A program made the position numbers and the translations under genes. From Nitrososphaerota archaeon (GTDB lineage: Archaea > Thermoproteota > Nitrososphaeria_A > Caldarchaeales > JAVZCJ01): 35,056 bases of DNA. The notes beneath the pieces were generated by a model, which was not told the DNA's origin, did not search any database, and worked only from the letters and a program-made list of their open reading frames with translations. The stretch lies in assembly GCA_038817485.1 (NCBI GenBank), contig JAWAZL010000017.1, positions 1 through 35,056 on the forward strand, read 5' to 3'. How positions within the stretch are numbered: the stretch's first letter is position 1; each line of letters begins with the position of its first letter. Positions 17,336 to 30,354 of this stretch are shown here, piece after piece.

Positions 17336-17388
17336 TTTATTTTTACATTATTAAAAGCAAATATGCGGTGGTGAATCTTTGAGAGGCG

Positions 17389-18633
17389 ATTGCGTTTATA
17401 ACTGCCAATAACGAAAAAATCGTTATTAAATTAGGCGGCTCTATTTTAGATAATATTGAAAATATTGAAAAAGCCTCCGAATTAATTCATAAGCAATTTT
17501 TAAATGGTAAAAAAATAATAATCGTTATTTCAGCTTTAAAAGGCGTAACTGATAATCTTTTAAATTTAGCTAAGAAAGCCAATCCAAATATTTCTGATGC
17601 AGAATTAGCTTCAATACTTTCAATGGGTGAAAAAATTAGTGCAAGAATATTTTCCGCTGCTCTTTCTAATAAAAAACTTAAAACAATAGTAATAGATACT
17701 GAATCTAAATATTGGCCAATAATTACTGATGATAATTATCTTGATGCTAATCCTATTTTAGAAGAAACAGAGACTCTTATTAAAAATAATTTAGAACCAT
17801 TATTAAACGAAGGTTTTATCCCAATTGTTTGTGGATTTATTGGAAAAAATAAGAAAGGAGAAATAACAACTCTTGGAAGAGGTGGAAGTGATACTACTGC
17901 AATACTTATTGGAAATTGTATAAATGCAAAAGAAGTTTTATTCGTTAAAGATGTCGGAGCAATTTTTTCAATAGATCCTAAAAAAGTTTCAAATGCTAAA
18001 ATTGTAAAAAATCTTTCAATTGATGAAGCATACTTATTAACTTCTGGAGGAGCTAAAATACTTCAATCTAAAGCATTAAAATATGTAAAAAATGGAATGA
18101 TTATTAAAATAATAGATTTAAGTGGTTCTGAATTATCTACAATTTCAAGTGGAGAAATTCCTGAATTAAAAATTGAAACATTCGATAAGCCTATCTCAAT
18201 GCTTACAATTGTTTTTGAAAGAAAACTTCAAGAAACTTCAATAGAATCATTAATAAATGAAATTAGAAAAATGAATGTTGAAGTAGTATTAACAAGTTTT
18301 GATTTAAATTCTGCAATACTATACTTAGCTTATGAAAATTCTCTTAATGAAATATTAAAGAAAATACATTATTTAATTATTGAAAAAGGTTTAGGTAAAG
18401 CTATGAGTATTTTTGAAGATTTAATTATGATAACGATAAAAGGGAGTGCTATAGAAACTGTTCCAGGAATTATTGATCGTATTATTCATCCTTTAGCGGA
18501 AAGAAGAATAAACATATATGGATTAGCAACAATAAGTTCTTCTATAAGACTATTTATATTAAAAAATGATTTTGAAAATGTTTTAAATTTAATTAAAAAT
18601 GTTTTGGAGGTGATTAAAAATGAAAAAGATTAA
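17389..18633 (+). CDS. lysC: Aspartate kinase (start codon anomalous)
   Basis: It phosphorylates L-aspartate to beta-aspartyl phosphate. The complete N-terminus is present: EKIVIKLGGSIL (the KxGGS site), VISALKGVTDNLL, then LSMGEKISARI, GRGGSDTTAILIG (catalytic loop), and two ACT-like regulatory domains after about residue 260. The open frame begins after a TGA at 17380-17382 and contains no ATG, GTG or TTG before the KxGGS motif; the first ATG (17623) would delete the active site. ATT 17389 or ATA 17398 are possible non-canonical starts. The alternative is a frameshift from TTG 17379. About 414 aa from ATT, normal for archaeal enzymes. It leads the operon and overlaps asd by 14 nt. Confidence 0.85.
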   Translation: MAFITANNEKIVIKLGGSILDNIENIEKASELIHKQFLNGKKIIIVISALKGVTDNLLNLAKKANPNISDAELASILSMGEKISARIFSAALSNKKLKTIVIDTESKYWPIITDDNYLDANPILEETETLIKNNLEPLLNEGFIPIVCGFIGKNKKGEITTLGRGGSDTTAILIGNCINAKEVLFVKDVGAIFSIDPKKVSNAKIVKNLSIDEAYLLTSGGAKILQSKALKYVKNGMIIKIIDLSGSELSTISSGEIPELKIETFDKPISMLTIVFERKLQETSIESLINEIRKMNVEVVLTSFDLNSAILYLAYENSLNEILKKIHYLIIEKGLGKAMSIFEDLIMITIKGSAIETVPGIIDRIIHPLAERRINIYGLATISSSIRLFILKNDFENVLNLIKNVLEVIKNEKD

Positions 18634-29603: not shown

Positions 29604-29706
29604 TATTAATCACCATTATTTTTTATAATTCTAAATAATTTTATTAAATAAAAGCTTATAATTTACGCTTTAAAAATTTTTTTTAAAAAAAAGGTGAAGA
29701 ATTATC

Positions 29707-30354
29707 ATTAAAGCAGTCATTTTTGATTTGGATGGAGTAATTATAGATAGCGAACCAATACATTTTAAAGCTGATAAAGAACTTTTAAAAAGAAGGGGTA
29801 TAAAATATAGTTTAGAGGATGCTTCTTTATTTACTGGTAAAAGAGAAAAAGAATGTTATATTGAATTAAAAAGAATGTATTGTTTAAAAGAAAGTATTAA
29901 AGAACTTATTGAAGAAAGGAAGAAGATTTTCTTCTCATTATTAAATAAAGAAAATATTAAACCTATACCTGGATTAATTAATCTATTAAATATTCTTAAG
30001 AAAAATAATAAAAAAATTGCAATTGCTTCTTCTTCAGAAAAAGAATATATAGAATATGTATTAAACAAATTCAATATTAAAGAATTTTTCGAAGTAATCG
30101 TAAGTGGATATGAAGTTGAAAAAGGGAAACCTGAACCAGATATTTTTCTTAAAGCTTCTGAAAAACTTAAAGTAAATCCTAATGAATGTCTAGTTATAGA
30201 AGATTCTCAAAATGGTGTAATAGCAGCTAAAAAAGCTGGAATGAAATGTATTGCTATTCCTAATTCTATAACAAAAAATCAAGATTTTTCCTTAGCAAAT
30301 AAAGTTCTTAATAGCCTTAATGAAGTTACTATCGAGTTAATTGATTCTCTATAA
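29707..30354 (+). CDS. HAD hydrolase, beta-phosphoglucomutase/phosphatase-like (probable ATT start)
   Basis: About 215 aa. The N-terminus reads KAVIFDLDGVIIDSEPIHFKA, with the nucleophile and acid Asp in DLDGV. A helical cap follows, then IASSSEKEYI (motif II), GYEVEKGKPEPDIFLKA (motif III Lys) and VIEDSQNGVIAAKKAG (motif IV). This is the PGMB/phosphatase HAD-IA group. The first ordinary start in frame (TTG 29728) would remove the nucleophile strand. After the in-frame TGA (29695-29697), the only candidate starts before it are ATT 29701, ATC 29704 and ATT 29707. GGTGA at 29693-29697 is 9 nt before ATT 29707, good SD spacing. AUU initiation is my inference. It ends 1 nt from the M20 gene. Confidence 0.85.
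   Translation: MKAVIFDLDGVIIDSEPIHFKADKELLKRRGIKYSLEDASLFTGKREKECYIELKRMYCLKESIKELIEERKKIFFSLLNKENIKPIPGLINLLNILKKNNKKIAIASSSEKEYIEYVLNKFNIKEFFEVIVSGYEVEKGKPEPDIFLKASEKLKVNPNECLVIEDSQNGVIAAKKAGMKCIAIPNSITKNQDFSLANKVLNSLNEVTIELIDSL

Follow-up and report, generated by a model that had tools for sequence, protein, structure and literature searches.

A HAD-family phosphatase gene in this archaeal genome is probably translated from a near-cognate start codon, ATC at position 29704 (ATT in a sister species), behind a well-placed Shine-Dalgarno (SD) sequence. We put the probability that the intact enzyme is made from this codon at about 0.8. Most likely, it is one of about four or five genes with near-cognate starts in the genome. 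By the window we mean the whole stretch of DNA that was analysed, 35,056 nt long.

A phosphatase gene without a canonical start codon

The gene and the elements around its start, all on the forward strand, are as follows.

29656..29664, +: TATA-like element TTATAATTT, kept in the sister species; its promoter role is inferred
29692..29697, +: SD sequence AGGTGA, at an aligned spacing of 6 nt from ATC 29704; the 3' end of the 16S rRNA, GGATCACCTCC, was confirmed
29695..29697, +: in-frame TGA that closes the HAD reading frame upstream and overlaps the SD; also present in the sister species
29704..29706, +: putative initiation codon ATC (ATT in the sister species), from SD spacing, alignment with homologue ATG codons and the divergence pattern
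29704..30354, +: coding sequence of a HAD-family phosphatase of the beta-phosphoglucomutase subfamily, 216 codons plus stop, from Pfam HAD_2, TIGR02009 and the codon changes relative to the sister species
29707..29709, +: ATT, the start proposed by the first-pass annotation; most likely codon 2 (Ile), with a spacing of 9 and aligned with residue 2 of the homologues
29725..29727, +: GAT, codon of the nucleophile Asp (first D of FDLDG); no canonical start codon precedes it in the frame
29728..29730, +: TTG, first canonical start codon in the frame; internal, without an SD, and as a start it would delete the nucleophile

The protein matches HAD_2 at 1.5e-42, with profile position 1 at residue 5. 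It belongs to the TIGR02009 family (161.8 bits against a cut-off of 153.35) and falls below the cut-off of the narrower beta-phosphoglucomutase equivalog TIGR01990 (144.5 against 189.4). After the stop codon the frame reads AGA (29698), ATT (29701), ATC (29704) and ATT (29707), followed by AAA GCA GTC ATT TTT GAT TTG GAT GGA. The FDLDG motif is encoded at 29722–29736, and we take its first Asp to be the catalytic nucleophile of HAD motif I. The DxD of this motif is present in the product only if translation starts upstream of 29725, and in neither species does the frame contain ATG, GTG or TTG before the nucleophile codon. The first-pass annotation had described exactly this situation: a frame closed by the TGA at 29695, no ordinary start before the residues KAV, and a first canonical codon, TTG 29728, whose use would remove the strand carrying the nucleophile. 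Each of these points held, and the sister species shares both the stop and the missing start; TTG 29728 directly follows the nucleophile GAT. Judging from its position, the TATA-like element would place the transcription start near 29685 and leave a leader of about 20 nt.

Conservation in a sister species

The window belongs to contig 17 of an assembly (G000) of 1.44 Mb, about 27% GC and 38 contigs, apparently a draft MAG. It was compared with one congeneric genome (G001), apparently also a draft, with about 92% DNA identity. The HAD proteins of the two species are 95% identical. In the sister species the start region reads AAGGTGA TTA ACT ATT ATC AAA GCA GTT ATT TTT GAT TTG, with the SD and the in-frame TGA and again with no canonical start. 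Codon 29704 is thus ATC in G000 and ATT in G001, codon 29707 is ATT and ATC, and codon 29701 is ATT and ACT, respectively. The first-pass annotation had called for an alignment of orthologues and would have counted an ATG at the same codon in close relatives as evidence against its proposal; the one close relative carries ATT.

The pattern of divergence changes at codon 29704. Upstream of it the two species differ at positions -19 to -14, -6, -5 and -2; in the first 90 nt downstream the sole differences are those at +2, +5 and +14, each a third codon position. Over the whole gene we counted 22 synonymous and 13 non-synonymous codon changes, and these counts, together with the restriction to third positions after 29704, indicate that the reading frame is under purifying selection. 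These comparisons describe a functional gene, coding from codon 29704 or thereabouts, that has no usual start in either species.

SD spacing and homologues point to codon 29704

To calibrate the SD spacing, 1.17 Mb of G000 and 1.19 Mb of G001 were pooled and orthologous open reading frames were matched. Spacing was then measured as the nucleotides between the A of GGTGA and the start, in 508 orthologue pairs with a shared first canonical codon. A recognisable SD is present in only about 22% of genes in these calibration pairs. The spacing peaks at 6 nt (34 of 110 SD genes), with most values at 4–7 nt, and the SD of the HAD gene stands at this modal distance from codon 29704.

The homologues agree with this placement. 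Where they begin with ATG-X-K-A, the ATG aligns exactly with codon 29704: a protein from an Aenigmatarchaeota MAG (L063), 44% identical to the HAD protein, begins ATG TTA AAG GCA; another (L093) begins ATG ATT AAA GCT; and two from the same order as our archaeon (L003 and L004) begin ATG ATT AGA GCC. Among the 35 homologues scored, the nearest start codon falls at the 29704 position in seven. Most of the others start two or three codons farther upstream, where the frame here has its stop. Gene structure, conservation, SD, spacing and homologue alignment are established here at the level of sequence comparison, and codon 29704 (ATC; ATT in the sister species) is most likely the initiator.

If so, the AGGTGA would pair with the tail of the 16S rRNA and, being optimally spaced, keep codon 29704 in the P site, and the ordinary initiator Met-tRNA (anticodon CAU) would decode AUC or AUU despite the third-position mismatch. 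The product would begin Met-Ile-Lys-Ala-Val-Ile-Phe-Asp-Leu-Asp-Gly, and the predicted N-terminal peptide is MIKAVIFDLDGVIIDSEPIHFK, with or without the Met. Expression of the phosphatase may thereby be kept low or sensitive to initiation conditions.

Alternative explanations

The first-pass annotation had proposed a start at ATT 29707 behind a good SD. Its claim of a start other than ATG, GTG or TTG is strongly supported, but the codon itself is probably the preceding one. ATT 29707 is near-cognate, as is the ATC that the sister species has there, but a 9-nt spacing from GGTGA occurs in one of the 110 SD genes, against 34 at 6 nt, and homologues carry Ile or Leu at the equivalent residue with their ATG one codon before. 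The calibrated spacing and this alignment favour ATC 29704, and we regard initiation at 29707 as unlikely. Still less credible is that the gene is a pseudogene, or that a truncated protein lacking the nucleophile is made from TTG 29728. That codon is kept in both species, and TTG starts are common in the genome (65 of 440), but no SD precedes it, the codons from 29704 up to it change only synonymously in a frame under purifying selection, and a conserved family would lose its catalytic Asp and first strand; this is highly improbable.

A sequencing or assembly error could in principle hide a true ATG at 29704, or a normal start behind an indel in an upstream A/T run; runs of T8 and A8 do lie upstream, in what appears to be a draft MAG. 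Against this, a separately assembled species also has no start here; its flanking sequence and the third base of the codon differ, the homopolymer runs upstream are shorter in it, and three to four more genes behave likewise in both species. Because the absence of a start is common to the second species, an error is very unlikely. An ordinary start could also be supplied by RNA processing or frameshifting, through a bulge-helix-bulge (BHB) intron or a +1 shift from GTG 29694, and BHB-type introns do occur in at least four mRNAs of the same genome. But about 100 nt upstream contain no ATG, and with a TATA-like element at 29656 the leader would be only some 20 nt long. In both species the SD stands just ahead of codon 29704. 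Nor is the frame from GTG 29694 conserved: it ends at a stop after five codons in G000 and encodes another peptide in G001. We consider this route scarcely plausible and retain initiation at codon 29704 as the preferred reading.

Short introns in messenger RNAs

Short BHB inserts interrupt four genes in both species, those for EF-1-alpha, aIF5B, Kae1 and DnaG, and exact removal of the inserts restores the proteins. Contigs are given by their number in each assembly.

EF-1-alpha: BHB-type mRNA intron; G000 C4 near 62188, minus strand, 31 nt; G001 C1 near 84683, 32 nt
aIF5B: BHB-type intron; G000 C1 near 118077, plus strand, 29 nt; G001 C3 near 10042, 30 nt
Kae1/TsaD: minimal BHB intron; G000 C1 near 117373 and G001 C3 near 9416, minus strand in both, 20 nt
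DnaG primase: insert with a BHB-like hairpin; G000 C2 near 63161, minus strand, 26 nt; G001 C1 near 207065, 19 nt

Insert length thus varies between the species in three of the four genes (31/32, 29/30, 20/20 and 26/19 nt). The EF-1-alpha insert lies inside the P-loop motif (GHVD[insert]HGKST), and aIF5B is interrupted in this motif as well, one site away (GH[insert]VDHGKT); both proteins are intact once the insert is removed. In Kae1/TsaD the insert has the form CCGC-ACA-CCTTT..AAAGG-GCGG-AAA, and its removal restores LGIESTAHTFGIGIV. In DnaG a hairpin insert separates FGQ from TEG; its length differs by 7 nt between the species, and it must therefore be removed or bypassed. According to a 2009 paper (PMC2738675), cbf5 mRNA introns were the only ones confirmed in archaea by then. 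Most of the tRNA genes detected by ARAGORN in the two genomes carry introns, which is consistent with an active BHB splicing endonuclease.

Other probable near-cognate starts in the genome

The first-pass annotation had recommended a genome-wide search for similar cases, and candidates for such cases exist. Our test covered 530 reliable conserved genes of this single genus pair. It required an SD, matching at 6 or more bases in one genome and 5 or more in the other, spaced 5–7 nt before an in-frame codon; a case counted as non-canonical if the first canonical codon lay at least 5 codons downstream. With the real SD motif we found 21 canonical starts (ATG, GTG or TTG), three near-cognate and one other. 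The non-canonical codon pairs are ACG/ACG in the methionyl-tRNA synthetase (MetRS), CTG/CTG in TFE-alpha, ATC/ATT in the HAD gene, and ATT/ACT in a doubtful open reading frame. Near-cognate codons account for 15% of the columns tested. With 179 shuffled SD motifs the mean was 0.28 near-cognate cases, and only one of these motifs yielded as many as three. The sample is small, with three strong cases, one relative, two apparently draft assemblies and few SD genes. The candidates besides the HAD gene, two of them weaker, are listed with their positions in G000.

MetRS: C4 36957; ACG in both species, next codon ATT/GTA
TFE-alpha: C5 17364, minus strand; CTG in both species
NrdD-like protein with ArsR-HTH and ATP-cone: C5 22817, minus strand; ATA in both species behind GGGGGG/AGGAGG; weaker case
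Short open reading frame: C18 5032; ATA in G000, ATG in G001; weaker case, matches no family

In both species the first canonical codon of MetRS comes only after the HIGH motif (PPHIGHA), and the matches listed included no recognisable second copy of MetRS. A -1 slippage at its A7 run was rejected; the other frame meets a stop ahead of that run in the sister species. The CTG of TFE-alpha aligns residue for residue with the starts of relatives from other families of the order: TTG (G010), GTG (G013), ATG (G018) and TTG (G004). A start at the first ATG of the NrdD-like gene would cut its HTH domain (residues 24–72).

The putative start codons of all five genes, including the HAD gene, are one base from ATG, which fits an ordinary Met-tRNAi that tolerates a single mismatch with the help of the SD. 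This suggests that the lineage tolerates start codons one letter off ATG. The earlier idea that AUU initiation may be used in this lineage is supported in part: other candidate near-cognate genes exist, but their codons are ACG, CTG and ATA rather than AUU, so the pattern would be one of near-cognate starts in general and not specific to AUU. More broadly, start discrimination may be relaxed throughout the genus, with AUC/AUU, AUA, CUG and ACG serving as sole conserved starts of housekeeping genes (HAD phosphatase, MetRS, TFE-alpha and the NrdD-like protein), the SD compensating and gene finders placing the starts wrongly. We offer this wider reading tentatively, as possible rather than probable.

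The genus has a normal initiator tRNA, with A1:U72 and the GGG/CCC stem. No obvious lesion appeared in an alignment of its aIF1, where a W-to-Y change in the basic loop is the sole unusual feature, and an aIF1 lesion was accordingly discarded as the cause of relaxed starts.

As a separate observation, an ATPase reading frame (G000 C4 18732–19949, minus strand) has no canonical start for 89 codons. In both species it seems to be continued from an upstream frame across T/A homopolymers, possibly through a frameshift or slippage or as a disrupted gene.

The aspartate kinase gene

The aspartate kinase gene had been named as a second AUU-initiated gene in the window, and the comparison makes it poor corroboration.

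17383..18633, +: aspartate kinase open reading frame; ATT 17389 is GTT in the sister species, ATA 17398 is conserved

Besides its replacement by GTT, ATT 17389 is badly spaced, 12 nt from GGTGA. The conserved ATA 17398 lies near the starts of the homologues and has a weak SD. The protein is 78% identical between the species against about 95% for neighbouring genes, a roughly four times faster divergence. The 50 nt before ATA 17398 are conserved, yet the in-frame changes there are non-synonymous and leave no coding signature. The leader, at 17355–17400, is conserved and richer in GC, with GGTGGT/ACTGCC and AATC/GATT helices kept by G-U changes; all three A/G differences are compatible with G-U pairing in a hairpin, and the leader is possibly a structured RNA. 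An Rfam search of the window gave nothing above the gathering scores and two matches below threshold. As alternative readings we considered a start at TTG 17379 with a +1 shift at CAA TAA, a start at ATA 17398, and a BHB intron, for which no convincing BHB was found. We count this gene neither for nor against near-cognate starts.

Discussion

The E. coli genes infC and pcnB are reportedly initiated at AUU. Like such bacterial genes, the HAD gene is an otherwise normal gene with a near-cognate AUH start that follows an SD and is kept across species. It differs in being archaeal, with archaeal/eukaryote-type factors (aIF1/aIF2 and no IF3), and in that the codon is not the same in the two species (ATC or ATT). 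The autoregulation of infC by IF3 cannot apply here; the product is a phosphatase, not an initiation factor, and the gene is not of the infC type.

In its general outline the proposed initiation matches that described in a review of archaeal translation (PMC7531240): an SD-led mRNA, the anti-SD CCUCC, start selection by aIF1 and aIF2, and an initiator tRNA with A1:U72 and the GGG/CCC stem. AUG, GUG and UUG were the only archaeal start codons that a search of this review turned up, and AUU did not occur in it; the starts apparently used here, ATC/ATT, CTG, ACG and ATA, lie outside this set. The factor aIF1 reportedly makes initiation complexes on non-AUG mRNA less stable (PMC6237735). Near-cognate initiation in eukaryotes (CUG, ACG, AUU, AUA) involves the same codon set and the core factors e/aIF1, e/aIF1A and e/aIF2. 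There, however, the start is reached by scanning and usually yields extra N-terminal isoforms, whereas here it appears to be the sole start and to be positioned by the SD. We found no report in the open-access literature searched of natural AUC/AUU, CUG, ACG or AUA codons as sole starts in archaea.

Weak starts of this kind could, speculatively, throttle expression or respond to the supply of Met-tRNAi. Start-codon stringency has been studied mainly in yeast. If our reading is true, SD-guided archaeal initiation would be able to work without AUG, GUG or UUG in essential genes, and the genus would offer a natural system for studying how aIF1 and aIF2 set start-codon stringency. Gene prediction restricted to the three usual codons would cut such proteins short, and MetRS would lose its catalytic HIGH motif.
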